Shown here: positions 15,985 to 62,930 of the stretch, in pieces
Layout: each line of letters begins with the position of its first letter
How positions within the stretch are numbered: the stretch's first letter is position 1
Source of the DNA: Tubiluchus corallicola
Taxonomy: Eukaryota; Priapulida; Priapulimorpha; Priapulimorphida; Tubiluchidae
Length of the DNA stretch: 64,000 nucleotides
Direction: 5' to 3'
Assembly: GCA_030141605.1 (NCBI GenBank)
Contig: JAQGDQ010000017.1
Coordinates: 562,001 to 626,000, forward strand
Made by a program: the position numbers and the translations under genes
Notes under the pieces: model-generated
Databases searched by the model: none
The model's input: only the letters and a program-made list of their open reading frames with translations
What the model was told of the DNA's origin: nothing

Positions 15985-17840
15985 ATTTCTTTGTTTTCAT
16001 CAAAACACTTTCGCCATTTTACACAATCAGCCATTAGCTATCTGCGCAATTTCATAATTCTCAGCCTTGCAAGCTTTCACCGTAGCTGAAATATTAACAA
16101 CGCCATCACTGCGACTCACCCCACAATATTAAACAAAAAATCCCAGATCTAAGCAGGCAGCTATGTAATTGGACAACGATAATGTATACAAATGGTTAGT
16201 ATAAAATCTGAGAACAAACGAAAAAATTTAGACTAATAAAACAAGTCCGATAAATATCTTTTTTATGTAATGCATAAAATGATAATTTTGTTCGAATCCA
16301 ACTGTTTCATGTGTAAGCACGTTCATTCAAAATACAGCTAGAAAACACCGCGATAGAAGCATCATAGAGCACAAACTGCTGCAACTAGCAGAAAAATAGC
16401 AAGAAAGGGGAAAAAATTGCGCATGGTGTTACCTAACATAACCTAAAGTAAAACGTATGGTATGTTACCTGTAAGCAGAAGATAGGAACTATTCTACAGT
16501 TGGTGTAAACTAAAGAATCACTTCAAAATGTGTTTCTTTGTTGAATAACTACGAGGTGATGTGGCCTGGAAGTAAAATCGAGGGGAAAATTGAAGACGAT
16601 TCGACAAGTTGCAAAATAAACCGAAAATGATTCTGACGATATTAAAATCAAAAGTATAACCCACTTTATTATGATCAACAATGACATTTTCAGATTTTTG
16701 AATCTTAATATCAAAAATGATTTTGTTCTTTAAATCGAGTTTTCAAGTACAGTTTTCCCAAAGTAGAACTTACCACATGACCTGCAGGGAATTTTGCAGA
16801 CACCACTAGGAGGATTAGTATTAAACTTTACTGAAAAAAATTGTTATTGTGCTTGAATATAAGTCTAATTCAAACTCAATCTAACTCAAACTCTCAAACT
16901 AACAGCTGTATTAAAGGTCTCAAGACTCAGAGGATGAGTTCAAATGAGTTAAAATAATGTGACTGGTACATAACATACATTAATTCAATAAATCGCACAC
17001 AATAATAATAATTAGGTGTACCTGTATTCAATTTCATTTACACTTTCATTTTAGACAGGTGAGCTACACATCAGCAACAAAACACACAAAATACACTTTT
17101 ACTTTAGTTGTAAATTTATACTATACATTTATTTCATTTAAATTTAAGAATTGTTTACAGGAACAAGATTATAATTTAATTACTAAAGCAATTGACGCTT
17201 GATAAATTGTGTATAATTTTACACAGCTACCCAGTGACTGCCTTCAGCTGCATGATAAAGCAGGTAGCATTAACAAAACCCACACATGAATTTCTTTGCC
17301 AAAAGGCAGCTTATATAAACTGGGCAAGTAGAGGTACCATTGGAAACCATACAAAGAGAGTTGTATGGTTTATTTACGTGACAAAAATTGACAAGGTAGA
17401 TACAAATACAATACACCAATTACGTCGTGCTAGTTTTTCTAGCGTTTTGGTACGAACAGTGGACAATAATACAAGTTTTATTATAAATTTGCTAATAACT
17501 CTTGAAATTCATCAAGTAGAGCCAGAGCTTCATCAAAAGCCAAACTGTATTAATAAGATTCGGCTGGAATGTTAGTAATATTGCACTTTCTCAAAGTCAC
17601 ATATTCCAGTAACAAACTAACAACATATAGTCAAAGCTCACCAGTTTATTTAAAAAGAGTAAACTATGTATAACACAAACATCTCGGGAAATTTCGTTTG
17701 AGTTACGCGAGGATACGAGTTAGACAACGTTCGTAAGACTACAAAATCGAGTCACTCACCAACGTCGTACAATACACTGCAGCCGGTGAAAATGACAAAC
17801 TGAGCCTTTACTCAAATATAAAAGAACAATCTTTGATATC
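15985..17840. other. Intergenic region upstream of the receptor gene
   Basis: Holds the presumed receptor promoter directly above 15984 and AT-rich sequence beyond. A low-complexity stretch at about 16860-16915 repeats CTCAAACT-like units. No coding exon is supported; the open frame at 17192-17575 has no recognisable motif. Confidence 0.4.
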
Positions 17841-38368: not shown

Positions 38369-41300
38369 ATGAATTCTGCTGTAATTTTTCTAGTCACTTC
38401 CATATTTCTGTATCGTTACGTTGCTGCGCCGGGACCGAAATCTAAGTGGAGTCCGAGTTTCCCTGACTATATGCCACCCTTTGAAATTAATGTTGAAAAA
38501 TGTAGGTCACTTCTAAATTAATAGATTTACTCTCTAGCAAGCTTCTCACTTTTCCTCACAACTTGTCGTTTGGAGTTGGTTGTAGGTTGTAATCAGATTG
38601 GTGAGAAAGGAATCTTAATTCTCCACGAAAAGAAATAACAAGTGTCCAAGTAATTATTGACATCTTTCTGAAACAGCTTTTGAATTCTCAAGCATAGCTA
38701 GTATTTATAATCAATAAGCAAGTTTTTGGGATAGTTGTTGCAGAACTTTGTATACTGTAACATATTTTGGTTGTTATTAAAGCTTTAAAGATTTTACATT
38801 TTCATATAATATGAAAGAATTTTATGAAACAAAGATGTTTCTGCTTTGTTTCTGCATGGAAAGCAAAACAAACAATAATTGTATAATTATGTAACAGTTC
38901 TACATGTTTAAATACAAATTGTTGTAGATGCATTACGAATCATGCGTTACTTATTTTTAGTCTAATGAATTTAAGTGGTTATGTTTGCGTCCTTGCGCAG
39001 TCAAAAACCTTTCAGTGTTCTTACGAAGTTAAATGTGCACTTAACAATGTATCAAAAAAGCTTTTTAAACTGAATCGTCGCTAAACAGGGACTCATTTTA
39101 AACAAGGACCGTATTACTGCATTAAGTGTGACTTGTGCATCATTGCTGTTTTAGGGAGAGAAGAATATCGAGACAAACCATGGTGGGATTGTCGCCCAAC
39201 TGAGTTCACACAGTTATTCGAGGCCTGGAAGTTCAAGAAAGGTAACTTATAATAAATTAATGTAATATCTGAGGCCAGACACATCTTCAGATACATCTGG
39301 TGACAACTCTGTTTTTTTTAATTAGGCTGTATTAAATAGTTATTATTGTAATGACAGAAACATTTTCAACATAAGTTAATACCACTGAAGTACTTTATTG
39401 TAACAAATATCAGCACAGAAATGTTCTATTTAAGTAGATTAATTTGACTGTTTACTGCAGCAGTAATTAAACAGACAGGTGACTGACAGGTAACTGACTG
39501 AAAGCTGGTTGAAACTAAAAGGTTTACATTGCTGCCACAGATGGCGCAACATACATGAATTTATAAGCAGATTAACAAAAAGCATGCAGCTAAGTCTGCT
39601 ACAGTCATAGTACTTCAAGTAATAGATTAGATTAGATTTTATTCATCTCATTTAAAATTATACGCGTATAATAATATACAATGTTTCTTTAAGATGATAA
39701 AGACCACATTGAGACTGGGTGCTGTAAGACCTATCAGCCACCCCTATTTGTCCATCATTAATATTTATTTAGTCAATCAAGTGACACTTAGTACCCTGTT
39801 GCGAGACATGTTTAATAAATATAAGTATTGTAAATTTATAATAAAAATTATGTTAGTAACTAAAAAAAGGCATACTTGTTATCAATATCTAAATTACTTA
39901 AAACCTTTTGTCAGTGTATGCAAAATAATCGATAAACTAAAATGAAAATACATTACACAATTATAACAGACATAGCGCAGTAGCACAAGACTTTAAAACT
40001 TGATAAACAGACAAATCAAACAGGTCAAAAAATCAATCACAGTTTCACAACATTGACAACATTTACAACAATTGCATAATGATTTGCAACAATTACTTAA
40101 TGATTATACACCTAGTCATATATTTATTATTGCATACAACATTGCTATTTTTAAGGGTATTGTCGTAACAGTGGTAATGATAACATATTAAAATAAGAAT
40201 GTTGTAAGTTATAGTACTGCATTATATCTAATCGCTATTATGCATTAGAAGTTTGCATATTATGATGCAATAAACTCTGTAATATAGTAAGGGCTTGTTA
40301 GTATTAAGTTATTAACCCAATTTATTCTGTAGCAGAAATATAACAAAATAATCGGACATTTTTGACTGGCAAGAGTATCAACTCAAATCGAGGACCTTAA
40401 TTAAAATAGGTTTCTGCACAGACGTACAAGCTCTATATAGACACACAGCAGCTTTCATTGTAAGACATCTCATTTAATAATACACGCACGCACACACGCA
40501 CACACATACACACACACACACATTTATTCCAAGCTATTCCTTGTTTATTCCTATTATTTTTGTTTTTGCTGATTTTCTAGGCGATTCAGTAAAACTGGAT
40601 GAGGGTTTGACGATACTCACAAGGAAAATGAGACCTTATCGTGAGAGATTTTTCACATTAGGAGCGCCTTTTTATGGGGAGACTAAATTTAATCCGCCAC
40701 AAGCTAAAGATCTTTTTAAGATCACTGACAAAGTGTTTCTTGTCCTTCAGCAGGATCTATTAGAATGGGTAAGTAATTTTTGATCCTGACGCAAGTGTGG
40801 GAAGTGGAAACCCTAACGCTTGGTCAAGTTGTTGTTGATTGTTGCTGTTGCTATCAAAATTCCTAATTCTTTAAATTTTGTTTGTGTATAAAATAAGTTT
40901 TTTGCTTTATTGTTTGCAAGAGTGTTGTTTAATTAGTTCCAGTTTTTACCAGAGCTAATCTGTATGGAAAATAAACGTCTTTCTTCTTTGTCGTGTGTTA
41001 GGGAAATTATAGTTCTTTTTTTTGTGTAATACCATTTAATTGTACATCTTACAAGTCTTAAACACTTGAGCACCTAAACATGTCTCGAACTTCAAAACGA
41101 CACTGCACTATGTCATAAACTTGTGAAACTTCTCATTATGTATTGTTTGCTCTTAGGGTGTGGGAGCTTTTAAGCTATTTGAGTGAAGGTTTTTTGTACC
41201 TAAAGAAAGTTGACAAAAAGCATATTATTAATATTTCATGGATCTTCACTGCGGAGGTAAATAAAAGCAAAGAACGAATGATTAAAACATCACAATGCAA

Positions 41301-44300
41301 TTACTTATTTACAACATGTTGAAGTGCAATGATAAATATGTTAGATGCCATGCTGAGTTACAGTCATAAATGTTAGTAATAATTTCTCGATTTATCAGTG
41401 CACATTTTCGTACTATGTAAGTACTCTCTATAACATGTTAGCAATTGTTATAACATGGAAAAAACCTGTTCCAACCATTTCAAGTGCCAGACAATTTTTT
41501 CCCAGGGTCTACTTTCTGCCTACACTCTTATACACTACCATATGCATTCAGATAATTACGTAGTTAATGAGGCGATGACAGTAGTAATTCATTTGGCTTT
41601 AAAGTTATTCATTACAAGTAAGCTACAGAAGTTTACATTCCTTTCACCCAATTTACACGAAAATGTGTAAAGAACTACTGCACTAGCAGGCTGTGCTATT
41701 TTCACTACCTTCTTCAGGGAATTAAAGAATTTCATGAGACTAACTCAAATGGCAGCTCAGGCATGTTGCATTGAGAAAGTTTGTCACAGCTCACGAGTAG
41801 TAAGGAACGACTGCATCTTGCTGAAAATCTACATTGTTAATACTGAGATAATAGTGTGGTCCATGTGATGCTGTGAATTTCCGGTGAACTTCAGTTGTTG
41901 TTCGAAAGGCCTCATGCCAGGCTGATTTTGTACCTCATTTCTAACATTACTGTCATTGTCATAGCAATGTGGTTCCGGGCAAAAAAAATTATCAAAGGCC
42001 CCATTTGTTTCATGCAAGAGCTTGCTGAGATTGCAGAAAATTTTAAAGAGAAAATGTGAAATCAAAGTGTATAGTGATATTTTTAGACACCCTATGTATA
42101 CTTAAAGCAAAAGAAAACCCTCCACTTACATAAATCTTAAAGAATTTGTTTTGCAGTTTTATACAGCTTACGTGCTACCCTTTTGCATGCAGGGCCTGTA
42201 TCGGCCGCAACGTTGTATAAAACTTGTAAATTTAAACTCCCGAGATGACCGTTAAGCACAGCCATTTTGGTGGCAGGTTATTTAAAACAAGGTTAGATAA
42301 CACTAAGTAAAGTTTGAAAAAATAATCAGAGCATTCGTAGAATACATGTTGCAAACTAAGTAAAATTTAAAATTACTGTATCTTATCAATAAGATTACAA
42401 ATACGTTTTTGGCTAGAGAATGGCGCACTCTGGAGGGTGAGTCAGCGACATTTTACCAATTGGCGCAAACATTTTAATTAAATTTTTAGTTGCATAAGTC
42501 TTTGCAGTAGGTAAGCGAAATGCTAAGAAATGTAGATTTGCATGGAAAGTTTTTTGGGACATAAATTTAACATTGCCTTTTTTCTCCTGATTTGTCTCCT
42601 GATGACATCATGTAATATCAGCATCAGAACAGAACAGATCAAACAAAAAAATTTTTAATTCGAGAACGACGCATTGCTGTAAAATTGTTGTAAAATAGTA
42701 TGATTTTTTAAGGCAATTTTCTGAAGCCTACTTTTCTTGATCTTTAAGTTAGTACTACTGTATTTTGTTTCATTATGTTATTTGGAAAAATCTAAACTTT
42801 AGCTGATTTCAGGTTGAAACTTACAATTACACATTCAACAAGATCGAGTTTGAGATGAGGTGTGTTGAAAGTATATTCTTTATGCTCAGAGCACCGAATA
42901 TGTTGTACGATTGGGTATTACCTTACGTATATTTTTACTTATTTCACACTTCTTCATTACATGGCATTTGTTTTAAGTGACTTCCTGACAAGTGTCACTT
43001 AAACAAATTAAGTTAGAAGTCAACATAAACCTTTATAGTGATTTAGTTAGAATTTCATGCAATATTTGGACTTTCTTTTTTAATTACTCTGTTAGAAGAT
43101 AAAATAAATTTAAAATTTTACGATAATAAGTTTATTGATGAATACAGTACAGTGCAATACAGTACAAAGTAATAAAACACGGTATACAAAGACAATAAAC
43201 CTAAACGTTTGGGTTTAGCAATAAAAATTCAAAGTAACAATCAAAATTTTATATTCGCTTCTTAAGCCTTCTATTGTTATTGTCATTAATGTACAAAGGT
43301 GTTAGCCTGTTTTTTGCATTTGAAAAAAAGTGAAAGTATAACACTGATAACAATATTTATAGCTGTATCTGTGCTTGCAAACGAAAACCGTCCACAAGTC
43401 GGCATAAGTCCATAAGTTGGCATAGTTAAAACTACGTTATGATGCTTCAAAGTAGAATGCACCAAAATTTTAATCTAATGTTAATTTTTTGTTTTTTATA
43501 AAAAGAAATGCTAAATATATCGGACTATTATATTCTAGCATTAAATTATCAAGAAAATGTCCAAAAATACTAAAAATTTAATTTTACATCTTGTGCCCAT
43601 TCTCTGTCTAGAAACTAGTACTACAATTGTAAAAACGTGTATTTTCAAACTCTGATAGTAGCTCGTGGCAGCAGTCATTTTGCTTCAGGTTTTTTCTGTT
43701 GACAAACCCAAATCTTCGTCAGGAAGAGCCATCTAGTGGATTTAAACATAACTTCAGTGTGCTCTTGCAATTGCACGAAACTTGTATTTGCAAACTCCGA
43801 TAGTAGCTCATGACAGCATATTAGCAACCACACTTGTGCTATTGCTAAATGTTTTGTAAAGATGCGACAAAAAAGCAATGGCTGACTTTAATAGCGATTT
43901 TCTCGAGGTTATATTTTTCAATGCACAGCCTCAACTTCCAAGTGGATTATTTCAGCTTAGAAATAACATAGAGCGATGAGCTTGGTATCAAAATTATACT
44001 CATGAAATAGAGATTCGGGGCAATTGAATAACTAGAAAAAGTTGATTACCGACTTATGGACGATTTTGCACTGGAAGCACACATATGGTTCTGTCTGAAT
44101 ATTATATAGATTAGTTAGGTAAAGTTTACAATTCCCCACACAAAAGAAATTAGTTCATGACGCACACATTAGAATTAGGATTGGGGTTAGGTTTAGTTTA
44201 TTGTGTAAGCTTTTTTACTGTAAAACTTGTTTCCTTGTTTTATCACTTCATTTTTAGCGATATTAAATTTGAAGAAGTGCCATTTTTCGTTGCACAAGAT

Positions 44301-47300
44301 GAATGACATTATGAGTACAATACCATCACGAGGTCACCAAAGATAGGTAAACGAACATCTGTAACCAAAGGCACTCTCTGTACCTCGTATGTCATTCTCG
44401 CTCTTTCGTGCCAAAGAGGAACATGGCAATCTTTACGGTAATGCACGCGTTTGAAGTTCGCCAGGAAAAAGTACCGTATTTTCCCGTGTATAAGAGACCC
44501 TTTTTTGCTCAGAATTTTCACTTTAAAAATAGGGGGTCTCTTATACATGGGAGTAAGTCTTTTCAATAAGATGCATAAATTGTGACACTAATGATTTTAA
44601 AGAAATAAGTGCTCTACAACTGTTTTGCGTGTCGCGTTCGACTATGAAGCGGTTGTAAGCAATACAAGCATCGTGACACAGGCATTATCTCCTCGTTTCC
44701 TCTTTTCCTGTTACAGGTTTGCAGGTACGCACTTTAATATATACCAGTACTCTTTTTCTACAACACATTAACTGGTTTTATTTTGTTTTCAGTACCGCAC
44801 TGAGTTGAAAAAAGTTGTACTCTACCCTCTAAAAATGTCCGTCTGAAAAAACTTTTTTCCAGAATTTTTGCCTAAAAATTGAAGGGGTCTCTTATGCACA
44901 AGGGTCTCTTATACACGGGAAAATACGGTAAGTTATTTAATTTATAATTTTCTTTTGTTTAATAATAACTAAGAATTCTCTGAGTAATCATAACAATGTG
45001 TTAAAGAAACTTCAATGTCTGTAGGGATTATGTAGGCCTTTAATTAACAGTTTTATCTGTTGTTTTTTGTAAGGTTTCTTGCCCGCAAGATATAGTCACC
45101 ACAGTTGATTATTTAGTAAATACTAAAAGAAACGTTTATTAAATGAACATCAGATTAGATAAGAATTCAGTTCCTGTAGTAATCTCAGTAATGTTAGTAA
45201 TTGAAAACATTAACATGTTAACCATAGATTAGAGTGCCGTTAAACGTTATTTCTTTAGAGCTATTATTTTGTTTAGATAATTGTGCCAAAGCCTGTCGTG
45301 ATAAAACTAGACTTCAATCATTCTCGTCCGTCATTTGTTAAGGGGCGAAGTCATCACTTGAAAATAAGTGAGGTGAGGTTTCATGATTTTTCCATCTTAG
45401 AGGAGAGAACTAGTCACTCAGCATGTTGGGTTTATTTTTCTGTTGTTGTTTAAAGTTAGAAAAATATAACAAACAAATTTGAAAAGAATTGACTATAAAA
45501 CATAAATCTAATAATTATGTGGTATCTGGATTTATATATTGTATGTATATTACATATATAAAATCCAAAAACCACTGAAATTAATTATTAGATTTATGCT
45601 TTATAGTCAGTTCTTTTATATATATATACAGCTCCAACGACGGTACCATTTTTGCGGTCTATATATCAGACGAAATTGTCTCGATGTAGTGTCATTTCAT
45701 TGATGGTTTATTTTTTGAATTGGGCCCATCAGGAAGAACGAGGGGGGGCAAAAAACCTTCAAAACCTCGCCTTTTTTCGCCCGTTTTTTGCAAAACTTAT
45801 ACCTCCTATTTCTGGAGAACGGGAACGGGAACGGTGACAGGGTCGATGCTTATAATGGTTAGACAGCCCGTTCGAGGAGTGGGTGTTATAGTCATATTTG
45901 GATTTTGCGAGAGGACCATGGATCCCGTAAAACGGGAGTTTTTCCCAGTCCAACTCCAAATTTTTTGAACATTTTGGCCAAACAGCCTGTAGAAAATACG
46001 TTCTAGCGGTGTCTGGTGGAACTCTCAGAAGAAGATATATAGCTCATTAGAAAGAGTAGAAACAGGGCTACACAATGGTGTGGGTTACACGTTAGGATGC
46101 CTCCGCCAAGGGGAGTGGCGACGAGTTGATTAGATGTTTTGTTTTTGGCAATTCTCGCTTGCTGAAGCTTCCTGAAATTTGCTGAAGCTAAAGTGACATT
46201 TGCATTCTTCTGACGTCATTCCATTGTATTCTGCCTATAACTTCATTTCAGTAAAAGTTGCTGCTGGCTCTGCGTTAGGCAATTAATAAACAAACGCTAG
46301 TAGGATGTTCGCGCATTATTGATTATAAGTGCATTTATATGCAAAATGTTTTGTGGGGCATTTGCTAGTTTAAAATATACTACCTATAGAAATAGAAATT
46401 TGCAGGCGCAGTGGTTGTCACCATTCACCTGAAAATCATGAACTGGGAGACTTCGTAAATAGATGTGGCTATTTACATTTTTTTAAATAATTTACATCTC
46501 TTAACAATTGAGCAAAGTATTATATATCATTCATTGTTCATAAGTTATTGGATATAAGTTAAATTGCATTTTCTGCCATTTTTTATGTTTGCTCATATGC
46601 TAGCTTTATAGTTTCCGGAAAGTCACTGTTGTTATAACTATTAAGATTAGTATGTACAGTCTACTGCTTTTTTACGTCTTGTTGAATTATAAGAACATGC
46701 ATTGAACTATTCAATTGACTAGGATTTATTAAACAAGTTTCTTGAAGTTCGTGAAGAAGTCTATGGTTCTTTGATAAAGCTGGAATTTCTTTAATCTGTT
46801 TGATTGACAATAAAAATGCCAAAATCTTTAGCTCTAATGTTAAAGAAAAGCTAGATGGTTTTTCATATTCTGTCCCATTCCAAAGTACAGCTAAAATTTT
46901 ACTTTTTAACACCTATAACAATGCCAAAGTTTTTCTGATAATTAAATAACCTGTTAAAAATTTAAATAACATCTGGTGAGTGCATTTAGTGATGACGTCA
47001 CAGCTAAACATGATATTCAACAGCAAAACATTGCACATGTTTGCAAAAACGGAAATTGAAGTACAGTGCTACTGTACAGAATTCCGTGTAATATACAAAA
47101 ACTCAGCAAATTTTATGTTTAAAAATTTAAATTCTAAGTTCACTGCTGTGCTAATGCTTGAGCTCTCGAATGTGAGCGCACTACATCACAACAAACTGAC
47201 AAGTACAGTGGCTGTTTGTTTGCGAAACACGTTTCTTTGAGGCAGGTGCTGTGCACATCTATCTAGCAAATGACGAAATGCATGTAACTTGGCGTGAATG

Positions 47301-48843
47301 CGCCATCATTTCTTTCATGCGAGTCTCAGTTAAGAAAAATAATAATGTCTTCCTTTAATATTTTATGCATTAGGTTATTTTACTATGCTTTAAAATTTGG
47401 TTCTGTTGCCCTTTACACTCAAAAAATCATTGCTTATTTTTCAAGTACCAGTACAAATTTTATTAAATTAAATTTAATTTGACTTGATTTAACTAAGGAA
47501 AAATGTAGGTTCTATTGCAGACATTTAATGTACTACCTGTCATCACCTTTGTGATTTTAGGATAAGGCTAAACTCTCAAAATCTAATTCTAAGAGATTGA
47601 GAGGGGCTGTACTTGGAGAAGAGTATGAGAATCTGGAATTTTCTGCAGCCATCTACCATGCCTGGCTGGATCAATCCACGAAAAATTGGACATCAGGACA
47701 TGTTCAAGATGTTCATGGTAAAAAGTGGGTAAGGGTTTTTGTAATAATAAGTCACCAATAATTATTGATTTTATTTGCTCGCGTGTATGTGGTTTGAAAG
47801 TTTATAATTGCTGAAATATCCATTTAGGTTACACCTCTTAGTTAGCACCGATGAGACACTCATAATGTACATTGCATGTGTTGTGAAGCATCACAAGAGG
47901 GATCCGCTACATTTATTCATTTTTTACGTGACTTGAAGATTTCCGGTTTTGCTTGTTTAGGCTCGCTTTCGTGTAACAGATAAAAACTGCTGTTTATAAA
48001 GTCCAGCTTACAGTGCTGTTCTGTCTACTCAACAAAACACCCATTAACATTTCCCAACATGGTTTTTGACTCATGTAGCAGTATTAAAGTTACATAATAG
48101 TAAGTAAGTCCTCACCTAACGACTTCCCATTTTAACGACATTTGACACCTTTTCTTCATTGAAAGATACACGTTTCATTTTACCATATTTCAAATTTTTT
48201 CAGCAAATTTTTTACCATATTTCAAATTTTTTCAACAAATTTTTTACCATATTTGAAACATTAGAACTGTACTTACTGCATTATTCTGTTCTAAAAATGC
48301 GCAAGTAATGTAAAACAGTACACTTATTATATGTTTTTGCTTCCCGGCTAGCCGTTTGAGCATCTCTTTGCGATGTATTTGCTTCCAGGCACCTGAGTTC
48401 AAAATTTATGTGAAACAGTTTTGCCCATAACCTGTTCTTTTTGCAACCAGACTGAGTATCTAGATGAAATTGTTTCAAGGTCGCCACAGTGCTTGGGTTG
48501 TACTATGCAATGTTTAACCACTAAGTGTGTATGGCATAACATTTACAAAAACGAAACAGCTAGCTCTAGGTATTGGTATGAAAGATCGGGAGTTTCAAGC
48601 AAGCAAAAGAAATTAATCAGTAGAAATATGAAATAAAACGTTTAAATTATATGTTTAAAGCAGTCTTGATTTCTGCTCCTGGAACGTATTTCAACTTTTT
48701 TACATTTCTGTGAAAGTCTTGGTTTCGTTTAATGCTGTTTCACTTAATATCATGTTTTGCTGGAACACATTAGCATCGTTAAACGAAGACTTACTGTGCC
48801 AAGCTTTTAGCAACACTGTCCATGGAGACCTTTGTATGCTGAC

Positions 48844-48899
<56 letters not shown>

Positions 48900-51800
48900 G
48901 TTTATTACATAGTCCAGGGATAACACCTTAAGTAACTCAATATTTATTTCCAAGATTTTCTGGATTATTATTACCTGCATGTTACTTCAATAAACCCCCT
49001 TTCTTGATGGAAGAACCAGCGGTACCATTTTTCAAGTCTGTGGTATGACTCGGTCGGGAGTTAAACTTTTGACCTTCTTGGTTGGAAGACAACATGTTAA
49101 CATTGAGCTACAGCACCCGGTATATCCCCAAACTATTTGCAAATGACTCACCTGATCGTAATCACCCTGTTGTAAAGTGATGCTAATACTCAACTTTAAG
49201 TAAACTGGACTTGAGCAGTACAGAAGCGTTTCACCGTCTTTTCATATCAACTGCCCTTTATAGGTAAAAAAACTGATGTAATTACAGGGCGTCATGGTCA
49301 CTGTACTTTTTGTACATTGCAATTCCATTTTGATTTCTTGTACATTAAGGAAGTGCGAGGCAGGCCATAGTTAACACATTTTGGAAATGTTGGTACCTTG
49401 TTATTGTTTTTAGTGTTGCTGGTCTTCTGTTTCGTATTACGGATACTGATAACGTTTGTTTGTCTTTAGTGGGCGATACCAATTCATCCAGAGATTAAGG
49501 CTACTGACCTATGTAGGTACAACGTTAACTTAACGTATCACTTTCCTGTTGGTGAGTATTACTGAAAGCATACGGTACATAAGTGGATATAGTGCATAAA
49601 TCTGCAGCTGTCAGTCGGTACAGTTGTATTGTACTGAGCTTTGTCACAGCTTTGTTCTGTGTACACGCAGTTTCTGTAGGTCAAAGGTTAAGTGTACCAT
49701 AGCAATGCATCTTAATTTCAGCCTTCACGTGATGTGAATACAGCAAAGCCGCCTGCCACGTCAGTTCAGTAGCCACAGTTGTTTTACCTGAACTTAATTA
49801 TGCATTAGTTTGCATAATTAGGTATGGTGCTAGCTAGCTGTTAAAACTGTTGCTATTACAATAGCATGGCATTGTCAAGTGTGCACAAATGCCTTGTCTG
49901 GGTACACTTAACCTTTGACTTTTTCACGATCATCATCAATCGCTGGAACTGTGAAAAGGCTTTTTGTCTTCAGTCTTACATTTGCAAGCTGTTACAATAG
50001 GTCTTTCAAGTGAAAAACTTGCATAGTGGATGTGCTGAAGGTGTCAGGCAATAGCGTATTGTTTTCCGTGTTCTGGATATTTCAGTTTTCTGCAAATTGA
50101 TTATGCTATGTTTTGCTAAACTAGCATACTTTTGCTATGAGACTGCAAAGCTCTAGCTTTAGAGGCGAAACTTCGTGTAACTTGCATATGTGTAATTCTA
50201 ATGCGGTTACACATCACAGGAAATGGTTAGAAAGAAACTGCTGTTAAGTTTCCCAGTTCCACAGTTAAGTTGGGTAAATCCGGCACTGTATCAAAGCATT
50301 TGGAAAGGACTTCAGACCTTCATTCTTTTTTTGGTACTGAACGGAAAGAAGTTACTGGGGGTTACCGTGCAGAATATGATAATGTTGAATGTGCAACATC
50401 ACAATTAACAAAACTCTAAATTGAATTGAATTGAATTGATGTACTTCTTTTAAACGGAAACCGGATGATTGTGTAAACATTCACAATAAGAATGTTCTAG
50501 AATAAAGAATGCTCTAAAATATTGAAAACTACAATAGCTTTTTTAAATCAAAGCTTAGGTTAAATAATAATTACTTCGGATACTCAAATTTCGTTAAATT
50601 TTCAAAGCTACGGCTCAGTGAATCTACTAAGATTGGCAGCGGCGTCTTTCTGTCTCATTCACGTGGCCGACAAATAGAAGGCGGCACCGTGATAAGCATG
50701 ATCATGAACTGCAGTATTAGTTTCTGACGTAATATGGATATAGAGCCCATTTTTCGTGACATCATGCATTTAAACAGTACTGTAACACTCATGCAAGGGA
50801 AAACGCCTGCCAATGCACAAACTGTGGCTAGTTTCTGACGTAAGCACTTGCTGTGTTCGATTGCCAAGCTAAGCTAAGCTAATTATTCAAATATAAGGAA
50901 CAATTATTAACTTTTATAGGCAAGAAAATGTATATTTTGGACAGTAAATTAAAATGAGTTTGAGTCTAAACAATCGTCCAGTTTTCCTTTAATGTATTGA
51001 CAGCAGAATTCAGCGGGGTTAAAGCTTAATTTAATAAACGCATGAAAGCAATCAGAGGCATATTAACCAATAGGCTAACTAGGCTATAGCCTAGGCGGCA
51101 AAGTTTGAGGAAGCCGCAGTTTAGAAAAAACTTTTAGTCTCCTTTGAAAATGTGCATGCTTTCATATTCATGTAAAGGGCACATTTTATAACACACCACA
51201 GGCAGTTATTGAACTCAGCGTCTATATAAGTGCCACATAACGAACAGTTACAAAGTATTACACAACAAGCAGTTGCGCAGCCTCCTAAAATATAAGCGCT
51301 ATTGAAATAACCACGTAGAAAGTAGGTTAATGGTGTTCCTATTACGCCACAAGTAATTGCTTGATCTGCTTGTTACATAAACAATGGTAAATTCACAATA
51401 GAGATGGGGCGGGACAAAATTATGAGCCCAGGGTGACGTAAAGTCTTGATACGCCACTGAAAGCCAGTCAGAAAAATTTTTGCACTCCACTGGGAATCGA
51501 ACTGTGGCATTCGAAAAAGGAGAAACCGAGTTATAGATCGGTTTCTTTTAGAAATGCCTCTGTCAGGATGAAGGATTACGAGCTAAATTGGGGGAACTTT
51601 TTTTCTGGGTGACCAGTATAAGAATTATGACGATAATTCGTTAGATGCCATGAAAAAGATAATTGAAATTCTCATAATATCCTAACTGCTGTCGGGAAGG
51701 TATTGTACATCAGTCACAGGATACCTAAAGTTCTTTATCATTTTGCAGCATCTCAAACAGAAGGGATGTTTCGCATACAAACTAACTCTAACCTCGGTGA

Positions 51801-54617
51801 AAGCCCCACGATATATTTTGATGGCTCAATACGTGACGGCGACCGCGATTATTTCATCCTAATTCAGGCAACGCGAGCCATTGAAAAACATTGTTACAGT
51901 ACTGCTGTCATTCGAATTCACATGGTAAATGCCAACCTCCCCAAGTTTACAAAGAAGCATTATTATGTGGAAATCGTAGACATCACGGATATTCATACAG
52001 AAATATTAACTCTGTATGCTCACCCAAATGCCACCTATGAACTAAACTCCAAAAACGGGGCGTCAGTGGAAGACTTTGAACTGCTTCGGTTGAATGGTAA
52101 CTTGAGGACGACCAAACTGCTTGATGCCAATAGAACAAATATCTACAACTTGCAAGCCAAAGCCATAGTGGGAGAAAACGTGGGTAAAACAGATATTACA
52201 ATTACAGTCCTGAAAACTAATAGCAGGAATCCAGTGTTTGAAAAAAATGAGTACTTTTTCCAGTTAGATGGGCCAATTGTTCAAACAGATGTCAAAATAG
52301 GGCAGGTGAAAGCCACTACTCAGACGGGACAAATATCATACATTATTCAGCATCACAAAGAGTAAGTGTGTACTGTTTATTGTTTACTATTCTGCCTTAA
52401 TATCTTTTTTTTGTATTTTTCAATGTTTTATGCAGTAACAGTTAAAGTTAAAGGTAAAAACGGTGTAGAGATGTTACAGTTAGTGAATGGATAATTATTA
52501 TCGTACCGATGCTATCCCAAAAAATCGGTATTGTGTCAATACCAAGACGTATTACCCCCCAATACCGGTTCCATGTTTTCTAGCTTTCTAACGACTATTT
52601 TTTTGAGAAAAAATTCCCACAATTTTCCTGTTTCCCTTTAAGCCTGCAACAGTGGTAAAACTTATATGTTATTGAATTCAAACATGTGAATTAGATATAA
52701 TACATGTAATTTATACTGAATCTTAAGCTATTAAGCAAAGCCTGTGCCGGAATGAATAATTACCAAAGTAACATCGATGGCTATGTCTTTATACAGTTCT
52801 TTCAGCTAAATTGCCGGAATGGGAACACAAATCTTCACTCTTCTTATTCAACCGCCTGGATATGTTTGTAAAAATGATTGTTTGTAGCCCACTTCTTCAT
52901 TTTTTCTCAACAGATCAATTAAACCACAAATTCAAACTAACTTGTGCAAGTTTTGTGGAAAATTGATGAAAACTAGCCAAAGAATGATATTGTTTCCATT
53001 TCTTTATCACATTGAGAGTGTTTATTTTGTTGCAAAAACCAAGTATTTATGTAACCTATTTGTGTACATTTTCACAAAGTTGTGATCGATTGCCTTTAAA
53101 AACGGTGCAAGTGCACGATACTCCCAAAAAGCATACCATACTTATAATTCTCTTTGTTAAATGAACTTTCGAATGATATGTAACATACTAGACACAGTCT
53201 CATTCTCTGCTTTAAAAAGTTCAGCAGAAAAGTACTCATTGTGATCATATTATAGTTTATAAGAGTCTATAGCCTCATTAATTGATGTAGGATCTTCGTG
53301 TTCAATCTTTTCCTGCTGTTTGTCCCATTTTATTTTTACATATAAAAAGCTCAAGCCTTATCCGTACGAGTTCCTTCACAAAATGTACCAGCAGAGTTAA
53401 CACACATGTTACATGTTCAATCCGGAGCAAACTGTATAATTTGTCTCTTTTCAGCCATTTTCTAATTGATGATAATACGGGAGAAATCTTCACACGGCAA
53501 AATCTCCTTGAGGGAACGTACGGGCAGTGGAAGATTGGTGTGCTGGCATGCAACGAAAAGATGCCTGAATTCAACGAAGATAAAAGATGCACGGATGTCT
53601 GTGTGACTCTGCAAGTTGGCAATCCCCCGCCCACTTCAACTGATTATCCGTCTTACGATGCCATTAAAATGCAAAAAAAGACAAAGCGTTCCAAGATTCC
53701 TGGCTTAAGTGTGTTGGGATGTATTGTGGGAGCCATTGCTGTTGGGATTGTCGTGGAATTGACTTTACTTCTTCCAGGGTAAGTTCGTAAATGTAAGGCA
53801 AATGCACGGTTCTAAAAGTTCATGGAATTGTAACACTTTAACAGGTTCACACTGGATCCAAAATGCCCGTGCTACCCTAAGTGACCAGAAAGCCCTCAGG
53901 AGGGTTGAATGTAAGAGCACTATGGCTTCAGTTGTGCCAACACTCCCCTCTGTCATGTTGGTTGCATCCTATTTGTGATGTAGGCATTACTACTTTACTG
54001 TTAGCCTCCGCCCAATCTGGGCTTCCCTGTTGTAAGCCAGCTGTAACATTTCCACCTTAAGCTGATGAGTCTGTTGCTATGAAATTGCTTTACTGTTTTC
54101 AATAAAATAGTCAATTTTGCCTAAATCTGTGCAATTTTGATGTTTCCTGTTAGTGACTTTACACGAAGCCTTCCATGAGTTCTGTTGAAGCCAACAGTTA
54201 ATTGTGCCTCTTTTTCAATGAATTTAGCCTTCACTTCACAATTTATCTCAAAATATACTCTGTATAAATTGCTATATTTGTGTTTAAGCTCTGAACTAAA
54301 GTTCGCAATTCTCCACATACAAAAAATTAGTTTATGAAGCAGATTAGGATTAGGGTTGGGTTAGGATTTTTATTATCTAGGAATTGTGCATTCCTTCTGC
54401 TCTCTATATTTTCATTGCATTTTTTTCTTTCGATAGCTGTAAAGGTTCGCTTTTTTCATCTTATGTTTCTTGGCATGGTCGCACGAAATGACTCTAATTT
54501 TTTTTACTGTTTAGTTCTCTTCCACTTACCTACATGGCTTCAGAGTTAAACTTGTTGACGCCACCGCCAACGCCAAACCCGGTGCCACCACCAACACCAA
54601 ATCCAGTGACAGTACCT
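38369..54617 (+). CDS. Cadherin-like single-pass membrane protein with unrecognised N-terminal region (ten exons, 3' end uncertain)
   Basis: Ten exons join in frame: 38369-38501, 39155-39241, 40581-40768, 41167-41256, 42813-42914, 47561-47728, 49470-49551, 51749-52361, 53455-53778 and 54544-54617, giving at least 620 residues. Residues 1-20 form a signal peptide. Residues 21-270 are rich in Trp and charged residues and match nothing I know. Residues 270-349, 350-446 and 447-542 look like extracellular cadherin repeats: the IRDGDRDYFILIQATR strand, boundaries VNANLPKF and TNSRNPVF where cadherins have DxNDNxPxF, and DDNTGEIFTRQNLLEG. The calcium-binding acidic residues are largely missing. A KKTKRS cluster (563-567, a possible proprotein-convertase site) precedes the membrane helix (about 570-594), followed by a short tail. 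It probably works at the cell surface in adhesion or recognition. Weakest junction: the exon 4 acceptor, chosen because the nearer AG breaks the frame. The last exon and stop codon are not established. Confidence 0.72.
40484..40524. repeat. (CA)n microsatellite
   Basis: An interrupted CACACA/CACG run in the intron just upstream of exon 3 of the cadherin-like gene. Confidence 0.85.
42257..42755 (+). repeat. Dispersed repeat family R1, copy 2
   Basis: Aligns in the same orientation with 30887-31425 (see that entry). This copy sits in the intron before exon 5 of the cadherin-like gene and ends about 60 bases upstream of that exon. Confidence 0.8.
43370..44081. mobile_element. Non-coding element with ~33-bp terminal inverted repeats
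   Basis: The left end 43370-43402 (beginning TGTGCTTGCA, ending CCACAAGTCGG) and the inverse of the right end 44049-44081 match at 26 of 33 positions, strongest over CGTCCA-AAGTCGG. The 712-bp interior has no transposase frame. I could not identify a target-site duplication, so the superfamily is unknown. It lies in intron 5 of the cadherin-like gene. Confidence 0.6.
44472..44930. mobile_element. TA-flanked MITE with perfect 29-bp terminal inverted repeats
   Basis: The left terminus 44472-44500 and the right terminus 44902-44930 are exact inverse complements over 29 bases (outermost TACCGTATTTTCCCGTGTAT). If TA is the duplicated target, the element itself is 44474-44928, beginning CCGTATTTTC, which fits the Tc1/mariner-like group. 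Internal partial copies of the GGGTCTCTTATA motif appear near 44525 and 44885. No transposase frame. Perfect ends suggest fairly recent movement. Confidence 0.85.
45482..45617. repeat. Near-perfect 136-bp foldback (hairpin) sequence
   Basis: The two halves are inverse complements: AAAAGAATTGACTATAAAAC at 45482 pairs with the inverse of the sequence ending GTCAGTTCTTTT at 45617, and pairing continues through ATAAATCTAATAATTA, a TGG/CCA-containing middle and TGGATTTTATATAT-like sequence, with a small loop near 45541-45550. It could be a foldback MITE or a precursor-like hairpin RNA; there is no evidence of expression. It lies in intron 5 of the cadherin-like gene, immediately left of repeat R2 copy 2. 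Confidence 0.75.
45610..45962 (-). repeat. Dispersed repeat family R2, copy 2 (uninterrupted)
   Basis: The inverse of this segment aligns with 32637-33400 after removing the MITE from that copy. It is less AT-rich than the surrounding intron and ends at a TATATATATA run, as copy 1 does. Open frames across it are not protein-like. Confidence 0.75.
48844..49120 (-). mobile_element. tRNA-derived SINE with (TTA)n tail
   Basis: Reading the minus strand from about 49120: GGGTGCTGTAGCTCAATG resembles a tRNA start and RNA polymerase III A box, and about 45 bases on AGTTTAACTCCCGACC resembles a B box. A body of about 140 bases follows, then a simple (TTA)n tail (about 18 units on the plus strand, 48844-48898). 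This head-body-tail order is the usual SINE structure. It lies in intron 6 of the cadherin-like gene. Confidence 0.75.
49680..49919. mobile_element. MITE with perfect 19-bp terminal inverted repeats, copy B
   Basis: GTCAAAGGTTAAGTGTACC at 49680-49698 has its exact inverse at 49901-49919, enclosing a 240-bp element with no coding capacity. It is related to copy A at 27275-27592. The superfamily is not identified because no clear target-site duplication is visible. It lies just downstream of exon 7 of the cadherin-like gene. Confidence 0.8.
51053..51459. mobile_element. hAT-type MITE with target-site duplication
   Basis: The left end begins CAGAGGCATATTAA and the inverse of the right end begins CAGTGGCGTATCAA (11 of 14 match). 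The flanks AAAGCAAT (51045-51052) and AAAGCCAG (51460-51467) match at 6 of 8 positions. A CAGNGGC-type end plus an 8-bp duplication indicates hAT. The 407-bp element has no transposase. It lies in intron 7 of the cadherin-like gene. Confidence 0.72.
51468..51560 (-). mobile_element. Possible tRNA-derived SINE head
   Basis: The minus strand reads ATAACTCGGTTTCTC followed about 25 bases later by CAGTTCGATTCCCAGTGG, resembling A and B boxes of a tRNA promoter. Its downstream part seems to be interrupted or replaced by the hAT MITE that ends at 51459. Short and not independently bounded. Confidence 0.4.
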
Positions 54618-55726
54618 GTAAGTCCAAATGCTAGCTCCATTCAGCAAGTTCCTGAATGAGTGTTTTTGTGTGTAAAATACTTTACCTGTTTTATGTTCTT
54701 CATATATAGATTCCTATATTGTGTCTTATATATTTTGCTCTTTTTACGTATTTTTCTTTATATTTACTGTAATCTGCTATATACTCCATTTTATTTATCA
54801 GATATTTTTTGTCCTTCTGTTTATTTATTTATTTACATGGCAATAATAATAATAGATTTTGTGCATGTATTGCAATTGGCTTTGTTTTTTCTGAATGAAC
54901 CAAAAAATGTAACTTTGTATCAAAGATCAACTTCCAAGAAATGTGAAAGATTACAGATGCTTCCAACTTGGCATTTAGTGAAACAATGGAGAGTTAACTC
55001 AAGTAGCTCCAAATGAGCTTCATAAGTTCTTTTATTGGCTTCTGAGATTTTTAGCAAAAAAGCACAAAGCTACGGGAATATCGGTCAAGTTTCTGTTTTG
55101 TATGAACCTATTCCTTTCGCAACAGCCATTATTTGGCTGCCATGAATGTAATTAAAATCCATGCAGAGCCATTCTGTCTTTGTTGCTTTTCTTATGATCA
55201 AACACAGCATAAACAAATTCTGTCACCACTGCTTCAAGGTCGTGCATCCTGTGAAAAAGCATACTTCGTGGCCATGTGATACCTTATAGTACAGTCAAGT
55301 TAAGGTCAAACTAACATTTTTTTGTTGCTTTAGTTGCTAAAAATTTAAATAAGTTGTATGTTAAATTGGATCAGTGGACTACTCAAATCGTCCACAGGTG
55401 TCCTGATTAATCAGAAGTGCTATCCTTTCAAGGGTAAACAAACAAATCAGGGATTGGAAAGTGCCGTGCTAGGGCACTTAAGTTTACTATTTATTTGAAA
55501 TATAAGAAAAATACATTAAGAAAGACAAAAGAAGTGCAATAAGGTTGGTGTAGTCATCAATGCACAAGCATGTACAGAATTCTATAAATTTGCATATTAA
55601 TAAATAAATAAATAAATATTTTTTCGGCGAATACTTTTTAAGGTAAATTTACAGCCACATTATTATAATCAACTATATGTATGTTCAAAATGCTAATTTG
55701 AACAGCATTCATTTCTATTTGGAAAC
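54618..55726. other. Downstream region of the cadherin-like gene
   Basis: Should contain the remaining exon(s) and 3' untranslated region. An acceptor-like ACAG at about 54957 would add a short tail in frame (ending LAFSETMES and a stop), but its pyrimidine tract is weak, so I did not include it in the model. The rest is T-rich and AT-rich with no supported gene. An (ATAA)n run lies at about 55600-55618. Confidence 0.35.
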
Positions 55727-58116: not shown

Positions 58117-59660
58117 ATGGTATCTTCCACATTTTGCAGTGGTGCGTCAGGAATTACCAAATTACAAAATGCCAAATGGTCTTTGATGGCTCTACCAAAT
58201 GTGATGGAATTTCCTTGAATGATACCGTGCATCAAGAACCAAAATTGCAGCAGGACCTGAATAGCGTTCTACTTCGATTTTGGAAGGAACCAATTGCCTC
58301 CGGAAGGAGCTCAACTTGTCACACAGGAACATGCAAGAAAGAATCAAGAGAAATTTCCAATAGCTGCAGACACTGTGCTGCATTCAACATACATGGATGA
58401 CAGCATGGATTCTGTTCCTACAGTTGAAGATGGAAAGACTTTGTACCATGAACTGTCAGAACTCTGGGCACTAGCTGGCATGTATGCAAGAAAATGGTTG
58501 TTGAATTCATCAGAAGTCTTAGCAGAAATACCAGTGGAACGCCTGCAAGAAATAGATTTAGAACATGAGCTGCCAACAACCAGAACTTTGGGTGTCATTT
58601 GGAGAGCAAGTCCAGATGTTTTTGCATTTCACATCAACATGCCACCACTTAGCAGAAATACCAGTGGAACGCCTGCAAGAAATAGATTTAGAACATGAGC
58701 TGCCAACAACCAAAACTTTGGGTGTCATTTGGAGAGCAAGTCCAGATGTTTTTGCATTTCACATCAACATGCCACCACTCGAATTCAAGATGACAAAGAG
58801 AAATGTTCTGAGAAAACTAGCAACAATTTTTGATCCTGCTGGATTTATTTCTAAATTTGTAGTCCGTGGGAAGATATTACTGCAAGAAATTTGGACAGGA
58901 GGCTTTGGCTGGGATGACATGATAAATGCTTGTTTGGAGACTGGTTTTTGGCAATGGTTTTTGGAGTTAGGAAAGCTGGAGCTGCTTACAATTCCACGTT
59001 GTCTGCAGATGGATCAGACTCAAATAGTCATCTGTATAGACATCCATACTTTTGCTGATGCTTCACAACAAGCTTATGCTTGCGCTGTTTATGCTCGAAC
59101 ATCGTACATCAATGGCACCGTGGACACCAGGCTAGTAGCATCAAAAACACGAGTTGCTCCCCTAAAAGTTGTCAGTGTACCAAGATTGGAGCTAATGGCA
59201 GCTGTGCTTGGCTTACAACTTAGCTTGTCAACCACAACAACACTGCAAATTTCTATTACCAAGGTGACATTTTGGTCAGACAGCATGGATGTGTTATGGT
59301 GGATACATGGAAGGAGCAGAGCATTCAAGCCATTTGTAGCCAACAGGATTGGAAATATACAAAGTCACACGGATCCCGAACAATGGAGGCATGTGCCAAC
59401 CAAAGAAAATCCTGCTGATTTGGCTTCTGTGCAACTATAGACGAAATTGCAGGGAACTCAATTTGGTTAAAAGGACAAGCATTTCTCAAAAAAGATCCTG
59501 CATTGTGGCCGGCAATGATCGTTAGAAAGCAACAGTCAGCCACAGATGAGATGAAGAAAACTGTGGTTACAACATTTTATACTCAAAAAATGAACTTGGA
59601 AAGACTGCAACCCGAACGGTTTTCATCATGGCTTTCAGTGCTTCCAGACATGTGTTCTTA
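58117..59660 (+). mobile_element. BEL/Pao retrotransposon pol pseudogene (RT, RNase H, connecting region)
   Basis: The reading starts with the typical BEL entry WYLPHFAVVRQE (about 58117), then reverse transcriptase motifs VFDGS and [20 protein letters not shown] (58160-58275). A deletion follows, then the catalytic block [10 protein letters not shown] (about 58386-58415). The region TLGVIW, NVLRKLATIFDPAGFISKFV, a second domain with ADASQQAYACAVYAR and KVVSVPRLELMAAVLG (59050-59215), and TFWSDSMDVLWWI (RNase H-like) end with the HVPTKENPADLAS motif typical of BEL/Pao. The frame breaks at a 130-bp tandem duplication and by stops in the 5' part and after 59440. No gag or protease is seen; the integrase core is absent. 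It is inactive. Confidence 0.92.
58518..58777 (+). repeat. 130-bp tandem duplication inside the BEL/Pao relic
   Basis: Copies 58518-58647 and 58648-58777 differ at one base (CAACCAGAAC versus CAACCAAAAC). The period of 130 is not a multiple of three, so the duplication itself shifts the frame. The near identity means it is young compared with the rest of the decay, or an assembly artefact. Confidence 0.9.
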
Positions 59661-60357: not shown

Positions 60358-62930
60358 CAAGGGTGTGCAAACTACAGCCCTCTGAAAGATCTTTCCTGCT
60401 CAGGTGAGGAATCAAGTATCAGGAAGATGTTTCTAGCTAAACTCAGCGCATGATCGCAAAGATAGTGTGGGTAGATCGCATGGCATTAATAGTTTAATGA
60501 TCATGACTTTAATGGCTAGCCCTTACAAGACAGTTGTCACTTAATGTCACTATCAGACATGATGAAATTTTACGATACTTGGAACACAAAAAAAGCGACA
60601 GAACACAGCAAACTATCACTGAACACGCCACTGAAACACTCAAATGTGCAAGAAATGCGAGAAGCAACATAGTAGGTAGATCATTTTCACTTGGTTGTAT
60701 TACAAAATAAATTATAAATATATTTATAAAATAACCTAGTCAAAATGATCTACCTACTATGACCAAGAAGACGAATGGGCCAATCAATTTATAAGTAGCT
60801 AGTAAGCTGAGAAAGTGTACTCAACCAAGGGGATTCACAGATATTAGTTTCTGTTTTGGTTCAGTAGTGGCTGTTTCATCAGTGTAGTGTTCTTATAGAT
60901 CAGTATCATGGATAAGAAAGAGGAAGATTGAAGAAGAACATAGAGTGACAGATGGACAGACGATTATTTTTTCATTGAGCAAAAAGATAAACCGACCTGT
61001 CTTATTTGTGGCGATAATTTTAGTGTGCTCAAAGAATACAACTTGAAGAGGCACTATGAAGCAAAACACTAAGACGGAAAGTTGGAAGGAGATAAGATAG
61101 CGGAGAAAATCAAGAAACTGAGAAGCACCCTTAGTGGTGAGCAATGTATGTTTCAGAAGTTACAAAGGAAAGGGGAAAACACAGTGTGAGCTAGCTATGT
61201 CATTTCGTATCATGTGTATGAAACCATATTCCGACGGCAATTTTGTGAAAGAATGTCTCTGTCATCTGTTTTGTGTCCAGAAAAGGCAAAAGACTTTGAG
61301 AAGATGAGCTTATAATCGATACCATGGCGGAAGATGTACGTGGAACACTGAAAAAGAAAATGAGTAAGTTCATTGCTCAGAGTTTTGCTACAGACGAGAG
61401 CATCGATCGCAAAGATACAGCTCAACTGGCCATGTTTATCAGAGGGGTGAATGAAAGCCTAAATGAGGTTGAAGAATTTATGAAAGGTATGACTACTGGC
61501 GCAGATCTTTTTCTTGAACTTAAGGAGGCATTTAGGCGCTTCAGTCTTGGCTGGAGCACCCTTTCTGGGATGACTACAGATGGCGCACCTGCTATGTCGG
61601 GAGAAAATACAGGCCTTGTGGTACAAATTAAGTCGGAAATGAAAGAGAGAAATCTGAAACCAGAATAACTTGTAGTATGTCATTGAAAAATTCGCCAAGA
61701 AAACTTGGCTGCAAAAGCCCTTGTAAATACGTTAATGGTCCAGTTGTACAAGCTATCAATTTCATCATAGCCAGAGGATTAAACCATCGACTATTCCAAC
61801 AGTTTTTGACGTATTTAGAAGCAGATCATCAGGACTTCATCTGCTTCTCGGAAGTTCGTTGGTTAAGAAACGGGAAGATGGTCAAACGCCTCTTTGATTT
61901 AAAGGAGGAGATAAAACTGTTTCTAGAGCTGAAGGGAAATCCAATGGAAGAACTAGATGATGAGGTGTGGGTGTGTGATATTGGCCTCATCGTAGATGTG
62001 ACGACGCATCTGAACAAACTGAATAATAAGCAACAAAAAAGAGGTCAGTACACAAATGAGATGTACGGACACATCAAGTCATTTCAAAACAAGATGAAAT
62101 TTTGGATACGAGAGATGGAAAACAAATGGCCTTGCTCATTTTTTCACTCTTAGGCAAGATGGATTATGTTGAGGGAAAGCAACAGAATTTCGTAAACAGT
62201 TTTAGAAACTACAGAATGAGTTCCGATCGAGATTTGAATATCTCCAAAAACATGATGATTCCATGAAAATGTTCACCGCGTCCTTCCATGCTGATGGTGT
62301 GCCCTCAGAGCTTCAAATGGAACTGATTGAGTTACAAGAGAGTGAAGATGTGAAAGTATATTTCCAGGATAATTCACATTGGGGACTTCTACAGAAAACA
62401 CTTGAAGGAAAGATTATTTCCTCACCCGCATAAATTCGTCGCAAAAGATATGGCATTGTTTGGTTCGACCTATGTTTGTGAGCAGTTCTTTTCAAGAATG
62501 GGGATTATGAAGTCCCTGTTCCGTTCTGTACTCACTGATGAATACCTGGAGAAAGGTTTGAAAGTGTTGACTTCATCCGTCGATTCAGCCAAATCTGGAC
62601 AAAGTTGTATCGCACAAAAATTGGTACCACGAGTCGAAATAATACAAATTTTACTACACAGACCATGTGATACAATGTACTAATATGCATTGTAATAAAA
62701 TTATCACTATCTGACACGAAAGTTGAATATAAATATTATATAAATTTTAATGATTTCTAGAATAGTTTTCCTTAGTGTACTGTAGTAGAAATCATGCACG
62801 GAGATCGGATGCAAAGAAATCACTATCAGATCCTGCTGTTCTTGGCTCCTTGACCAAACTGCATGCGGCCCGCAGAAATTGTGAAAAAGTTTAATGTGGC
62901 CCGGCGAGTTAGATAATTTGCACACCACTG
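60358..62930 (+). mobile_element. Full-length, inactivated hAT transposon (BED finger plus hAT transposase)
   Basis: A 2573-bp element. The left end CAAGGGTGTGCAAACTAC and the inverse of the right end (CAGTGGTGTGCAAATTATC) are matching terminal inverted repeats. The flanks TCATCGAA (60350-60357) and TCATAGAG (62931-62938) match at 6 of 8 bases, an aged hAT duplication. Inside: a BED-type zinc finger (CLIC and HYEAKH, about 60985-61068) preceded by DRWTDDYFF; transposase pieces at 61324-61668 (FATDESID and TTDGAPAM, two catalytic aspartates), 61677-62153 (ARGLNHRLFQQF, EVRWLRNGKMVKRLFDL) and 62402-62683 (GSTYVCEQFFSRM, the dimerisation end). The sequence is close to the GTF2IRD2/ZBED-like hAT lineage. 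At least two frameshifts and several stops inactivate it. Nested inside is a short hairpin (60668-60761). Confidence 0.9.
60668..60761. repeat. Short palindromic hairpin inside the hAT element
   Basis: CATAGTAGGTAGATCATTTT (from 60668) pairs with its inverse ending at 60761; the arms are about 29 bases with few mismatches around an AT-rich loop. It may be a separate foldback insertion, or a subterminal structure of the hAT element. Confidence 0.75.

Follow-up and report, generated by a model that had tools for sequence, protein, structure and literature searches.

The gene considered here lies on the forward strand of a window of 64,000 nucleotides (the whole stretch of DNA that was analysed, positions 562001-626000 of its contig, labelled C716, in a 343.5-Mb assembly), in which ten exons between positions 38369 and 54659 can be joined in frame, with 0 internal stops, into a predicted protein of 641 amino acids. 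In the gene as rebuilt from the raw sequence nine of nine introns begin with GT and end with AG, and the exon phases are shared with intron-bearing paralogs found elsewhere in the same genome (C562, C1268 and C2082, the last with two genes, C2082a and C2082b; further partial matches occur at C185), which bears out the ten phase-compatible exons of the preliminary description. The product is a predicted type I membrane protein with a signal-like start and one transmembrane (TM) segment, and its extracellular part reads as an EC1-like domain, a remnant of EC2 and three complete cadherin repeats, EC3-EC5.

Exon 1 (38369-38501) provides the start codon, a signal-like hydrophobic stretch (recognised by eye) and a Trp-containing linker, and ends in phase 1 as judged from translation and splice site. 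The N-terminal, EC1-like domain begins in exon 2 (39155-39241; phase 1/1) with its first Cys (WWDC), and the phase and the '..KK/G' end of this exon (the slash marks the exon boundary) are common to the window gene, C2082a and C2082b. Exon 3 (40581-40768; phase 1/0) encodes the middle of the domain (LFK...FLVLQQDLLEW); its phases and 'G/DxV'-like start recur in C2082a and C2082b, and A1, a profile of the N-terminal domain, aligns there weakly. The late strands of the domain follow in exon 4 (41167-41256), which has a weak acceptor (GAG, 46% pyrimidine) and in which the second family-conserved Cys is absent, and exon 5 (45277-45372; phase 0/0) holds the last strand, a linker and the first strand of EC2 (..LKISE), with a '..SE/GT' phase-0 donor behind it in all four genes compared (window, C562, C2082a and C2082b). 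Exon 6 (47561-47728; phase 0/0), of which the phase-0 boundaries are identical in C562, C2082a and C2082b, contributes the last strand of EC2, a linker (ENLEF) and the first strand of EC3 (IYHAWLDQ), and exon 7 (49470-49551; phase 0/1), with boundaries and phases again matching those three genes, contributes a further part of EC3 (IHPEIKATD...YHFPV). The remaining EC3, the whole of EC4 and the start of EC5 are encoded by exon 8 (51749-52361; phase 1/2; family profile E 7.7e-38), the boundaries of which are common to the window gene, C562, C2082a, C2082b and C1268, and exon 9 (53455-53778; family profile E 5.7e-15) completes EC5 with its conserved Cys pair (LAC...KRC) and adds a juxtamembrane stretch and the TM helix. 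Exon 10 (54515-54659) encodes a predicted Pro-rich cytoplasmic tail that ends in ..SIQQVPE and a stop codon. The gene had been taken to end at 54617; this position proved to be a donor-like GTAAGT, and the reading frame continues to the stop that ends at 54659. It is also possible that the gene ends after exon 9 instead of exon 10, as exon 9, when left unspliced, runs into a stop directly after LLLPG, and an AATAAA lies at 54101.

The first Pfam, CELSR1 and genome searches were made with an early gene model that lacked exon 5, and the full model of 641 amino acids was re-tested against Pfam and PDB. With the full model Pfam Cadherin matched in the C-terminal half only (E 8.9e-9; 36.1 bits against a cut-off of 28.8), with residues 471-521 as its best stretch, and a sub-threshold FAT4-like match was found as well, the best stretches of both falling within residues 465-521. 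The closest match of the repeats, as obtained with the early model, was CELSR1 (E 3.2e-19), and their solved relatives in that search were CELSR1, Protocadherin-15 and Cadherin-23. The cadherin-like nature proposed for the C-terminal half is thereby confirmed, and the three complete repeats in a single-pass surface protein agree with the gene model, Pfam and hydropathy. A simple hydropathy scan places the TM helix at residues 572-590, followed by 51 residues, and the tail had rightly been called short and free of a visible catenin-binding motif: Cadherin_C had no match in the protein in Pfam up to E 10. Likewise, PF08374 (Protocadherin family) was without a Pfam match, Pfam found no other domain type, and the gene product contains no DxNDN linker. 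Residues 21-270 had been assigned to no known domain, which holds for residues 56-225, with 0 matches up to E 10 in Pfam or among PDB sequences (residues 1-250 of the early model likewise gave 0 Pfam matches up to E 10), but not for residues ~226-270, which are already part of EC3, the first complete cadherin repeat: this repeat starts at 'YHAWLDQ...', and the exon-6 segment ENLEFSAAIYHAWLDQ comprises the EC2/EC3 linker and the first strand of EC3 and lies outside the unrecognised domain. AlphaFold applied to the exon 8 piece alone was uninformative (mean pLDDT 29.7).

We also found several other features in the window. On the reverse strand, a full-length intronless frame at 14440-15996 encodes a TGF-beta/activin type I receptor (Activin_recp, GS motif and kinase; TGF-beta receptor type-1 is the closest solved protein, E 8e-173), which may be a retrogene since animal relatives of this gene usually have introns, and an exon at 27555-28124 encodes a MON1/FUZ/HPS1-type first longin domain (Pfam E 5e-37). 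Mobile elements are represented on the forward strand by a Pao-type retrotransposon peptidase frame, the coding part of which contains a short direct duplication (58261-59440), by an integrase-core-like retroelement fragment just under the Pfam cut-off (19336-19680) and by a stretch at 60900-62640 that we take to be a possible broken hAT/ZBED-type element, of which a single frame was scanned and gave no Pfam match. Elsewhere in the genome, locus L033 (contig C2201) carries a Hox-type homeodomain followed by KKENQALKEMKEQ, presumably a UbdA-like peptide, which suggests that the animal is probably a protostome. COX1 had no match in the assembly, and neither had a molluscan hemocyanin family, the control for which matched nowhere either.

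Searched across the assembly, the early model gave 74 matches, many of which lie in one uninterrupted open frame each (about 630-850 amino acids). By hand count the genome holds about 44 full-length intronless frames (15 in clade A, 25 in clade B and 4 singletons), a number taken from the best-scoring candidates, in which possible duplicates of the assembly, for example the C170 pair, are still counted. The clades were split by genome searches with three paralogs; clade A has short tails and comprises fragments in addition to its 15 full-length frames, and clade B has mostly long tails. We read 37 of the 44 frames (15 of 15 in clade A, 18 of 25 in clade B and all 4 singletons), 19 loci at first, from which the fragment L019, a twentieth locus, had been set aside, and then 18 more. 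Among the singletons, contigs C1711, C1797 and C2115 have identical match scores and were counted once; identical scores also occur among C2107, C2074, C2072, C1974, C1831 and C1752. In view of such identical scores across contigs the assembly may hold redundant copies and the family counts may be inflated. The intronless paralogs share one layout, namely a signal-like start, the N-terminal domain, four cadherin-like repeats, a TM segment and a tail, and family proteins measure about 615-841 amino acids with a tail that is short or acidic (6-35 amino acids in 21 of 38 models). Several paralogs are neighbours on a single contig, for instance on C2085, C1423, C2157 and C2331. The C2082 paralogs (matches L027-L029, L057 and L059) have an additional Cys-rich exon (phase 1/1 by splice-site reading) upstream of the N-terminal domain, a counterpart of which was not seen in the window gene.

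Pfam Cadherin was matched by all 19 members scanned, and Cadherin_C was absent from the 14 Pfam families listed for these paralogs up to E 1. PF08374 matched two of the 19 at E up to 1, with a best score of 25.0 bits below the cut-off of 26.3, and NCBIfam gave no relevant match for three paralogs. DxNDN was found in none of the 37 paralogs in any EC domain, and NDN or NDH in one of them; the intron-bearing C562 has a GINDNAPSF linker. DxD is kept in EC2 of 36 and in EC3 of 27 of the 37 paralogs, so that calcium binding may not necessarily have been lost in the family. We recognised no description of this family in the open-access literature that was searched.

Paralog profiles missed exons 2-5 of the window gene at the exon level, and the N-terminal exons of C562 were not found. 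Those of C2082a and C2082b were revealed by comparing these two genes with each other, and they match exons 2-5 of the window gene in order, in phase (1/1, 1/0, 0/0 and 0/0 by splice-site reading) and in short motifs. In global alignments the N-terminal domain of the window gene reached z values of 3.3 with C2082a and 3.7 with C2082b, and 0 of 500 shuffles attained either score. Profile A1 gave the same domain 2.7-4.1 bits, which was equalled by 17 of 1000 and 15 of 2000 shuffles, and after extension of A1 by C2082a and C2082b the score was reached by 23 of 2000 shuffles. Given the order, phases, motifs and global alignment shared with C2082a and C2082b, the N-terminal region of the window gene is a homolog of the family-wide first domain, and residues ~56-186 are, as judged from these sequence comparisons, the family's divergent, fast-evolving first domain. 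The preliminary description had regarded the region as an unrelated new domain fused to cadherin repeats, a view that gives way to homology in order, in exon phase and, weakly, in sequence.

As to its nature, we consider a sandwich fold like that of a cadherin EC1 to be quite probable for the domain. In 19 paralogs it ends in a strand and a linker that read like strand G and the linker of a cadherin repeat, and its length of 112-158 amino acids in these members fits one EC domain with inserts. With a limit of E 10, profile A1 retrieved 56 sequences from PDB. Of these, 53 are cadherins, with many closely similar copies of E- and P-cadherin among them, and the matches stop at the EC1 boundary in most cases, though not in all. 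Protocadherin-17 had the best whole-sequence E value (0.0005), and the best match with an individually passing stretch was E-cadherin at 0.05. When the last strand was removed from A1, two PDB sequences were left, Protocadherin-17 (E 0.51) and one unrelated protein. These cadherin-like features speak against a genuinely new, non-cadherin domain that would have been fused to cadherin repeats throughout the family, an explanation that we hold to be unlikely even though the N-terminus of the window protein is without a library match, Pfam has no credible match for the 19 paralog domains and hhalign fails to align the domain to EC2-EC5 (in the same test EC2 against EC5 fails too). Two conserved Cys residues, invariant in 19 of 19 paralogs, would also suit a new domain; here we cite the full-length alignment, since the first invariant Cys of A1 arises partly by construction from segments that were started at a Cys. 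It is very improbable that exons 1-5 form a gene of their own for a short secreted N-terminal protein and exons 6-10 a second one for a cadherin-like protein: the large introns (4.0 kb between exons 4 and 5, 2.2 kb between exons 5 and 6) and the phase 0/0 joints would permit such a separation, but the N-terminal domain and the repeats stand in one open frame in the 37 intronless paralogs read, C2082a and C2082b have homologous exons in the same order, and exon 6 starts without a start codon or a signal-like stretch.

The state of the window copy itself turns on EC2, the core of which is encoded, in each of the three intron-bearing paralogs compared, by two further exons between the positions of exons 5 and 6. 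Both of these exons are of phase 0/0 in C2082a and C2082b and therefore frame-neutral, so that their loss would leave the frame open. Across 45373-47560 a scan for open stretches of 50-260 nucleotides bounded by AG and GT gave three with fair splice sites, none of them EC2-like, and the paralog profile found no EC2-core exon in the window either. Inside this intron 5, where the paralogs have the two exons, lies a high-copy repeat of ~750 bp (45627-46380, forward strand) with at least 122 matches in the genome (the best 40 of 3735 candidates scored); on some contigs copies of this repeat follow each other at steps of ~0.8 kb. The window gene has moreover kept the first conserved N-terminal Cys and lacks the second, which we read as a derived loss because order, phases and repeats hold. 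The window copy is probably a shortened, diverged member of the family, and it may be in decay. According to the latter explanation the EC2-core exons and the disulphide were lost, perhaps on insertion of the repeat into this intron, and the frame has stayed intact so far. The lack of a fitting exon at 45373-47560, the repeat, the missing Cys and a long branch without a close paralog all suit decay; nevertheless we think it rather doubtful, as all ten exons are open with GT/AG introns, the frame has been kept through the loss of phase 0/0 exons, and the Cys pair of EC5 and the TM segment are retained. There is also a small chance that two diverged EC2-core exons are present and escaped detection, in which case the protein would have all five domains. 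Such exons occur in three intron-bearing paralogs, exons that are both short and diverged are poorly detected by searches, and the strict splice filter used would have missed even exon 4 of the window gene; on the other side stand the three open stretches, none resembling EC2, and the empty result of the paralog profile.

In a tree of 42 rows built on the exon-8 region, the intronless state requires three changes, two of which are forced by well-supported branches. Intronless L005 groups with intron-bearing C1268 (support 97/91), a grouping for which the tree tool warns that long branches are joined, and the window gene forms a long branch with no supported partner or close paralog, its highest identity being 32% (with C562). 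Judging from this tree, introns were probably lost more than once. That the family expanded by repeated intron loss, for which retrocopying would be the likely route, and by subsequent tandem duplication is a reading that we hold with good confidence.

We estimated dN/dS per domain by summing over 11 close pairs, each paralog being used in one pair at most (6 pairs from clade A and 5 from clade B, not all of them phylogenetically independent). The values for clades A and B, respectively, were 1.09 and 0.92 in EC1, 1.02 and 0.95 in EC2, 0.55 and 0.78 in EC3, 0.99 and 0.96 in EC4, which is an inner domain, and 0.63 and 0.60 in EC5. In no domain was dN/dS significantly above 1, and values of up to 3.6 reached by single pairs and domains were excluded as evidence. 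EC1 has the highest dN, and dS is also highest there, nearly level with the TM/tail part in clade A. The share of amino-acid-changing differences was larger in EC1 and EC2 together than in EC3 and EC5 together (Fisher P 1.5e-4), a grouping that was picked after the rates had been seen and that omits EC4; in clade B alone EC1 and EC3 did not differ (P 0.51). These rates agree with EC3 and EC5 being constrained and with the outer domains, together with EC4, being under relaxed or diversifying pressure; they do not prove positive selection.

Taken together, the best explanation, which we favour with moderate confidence, is that the gene belongs, as a divergent member with introns, to a family of short cadherin-like receptors that expanded in this lineage and would serve catenin-independent recognition. 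The architecture of the family comprises an N-terminal EC1-like domain, EC2-EC5, a TM segment and a short or acidic tail. Its outer, fast-changing domains would bind a partner on another cell in trans, its linkers would be less stiffened by calcium than those of usual cadherins, and adhesion would proceed without direct coupling to beta-catenin. That the members are diversified recognition or adhesion receptors with these three properties has, in our judgement, about as much for it as against it. A role in recognition (of gametes, neurons, or self and non-self) is plausible from the size of the family, its clustering and the domain-wise rates. The receptor architecture that had been proposed as new appears to be that of a divergent member of a large family and not a lone fusion. 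More tentatively, and with more doubt than belief, we propose that in a protostome a cadherin gene with introns gave rise, through several intron losses and through tandem duplications, to a repertoire of ~50 short cadherin-like receptors, that the hypervariable N-terminal domain of this repertoire would serve the recognition of individuals, gametes or neurons, and that the window gene would be a domain-shortened, intron-bearing relative. Cell identity depends on large diversified families of surface receptors such as clustered protocadherins, Dscam and the protocadherins of cephalopods, and, if the proposal is true, an independent expansion of short cadherins whose linkers are degenerate and whose first domain evolves fast would be another route to a receptor repertoire. 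The failure of domain libraries to recognise the N-terminal region is explained by this as well.

Among known systems, the CELSR/Fat-type cadherins provide in CELSR1 the best match of the window repeats (E 3.2e-19), but the window protein has no other Pfam domain type, is far shorter and has degenerate linkers. The classical cadherins (E-, N- and P-cadherin) resemble the family in having five extracellular domains, and the N-terminal profile aligns weakly to their EC1; the family differs from them in the lack of a Cadherin_C match and of DxNDN linkers and in the two conserved Cys residues of its first domain. With the protocadherins (vertebrate clustered and delta protocadherins and the coleoid expansions) the family has in common cadherin repeats, a single TM segment, a tail without a catenin-type match and lineage expansions in tandem arrays, and solved structures of protocadherins and of CELSR1 rank among those that the family profile matches best. 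Protocadherins have six or seven EC domains, whereas the paralogs have five and the window gene four and a remnant, and the family further differs in its unrecognised first domain, in DxNDN (0 of 37), in its tails (6-35 amino acids in 21 of 38 models), in PF08374, which can be used as a test of protocadherin membership and stayed below its cut-off, and in the ten exons of the window gene. An assignment to the protocadherins proper was rejected on the number of EC domains and the PF08374 result. The octopod protocadherin expansion is reported to have proceeded by tandem duplication on one chromosome (PMC9795677). In coleoid cephalopods 168-288 protocadherin genes are reported in multi-megabase arrays, with multi-exonic sub-arrays in squid, and the same source gives only a handful of protocadherins for other spiralians and none for ecdysozoans (PMC9068888). 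The nearest known kind of the family described here is such a lineage-expanded protocadherin repertoire.
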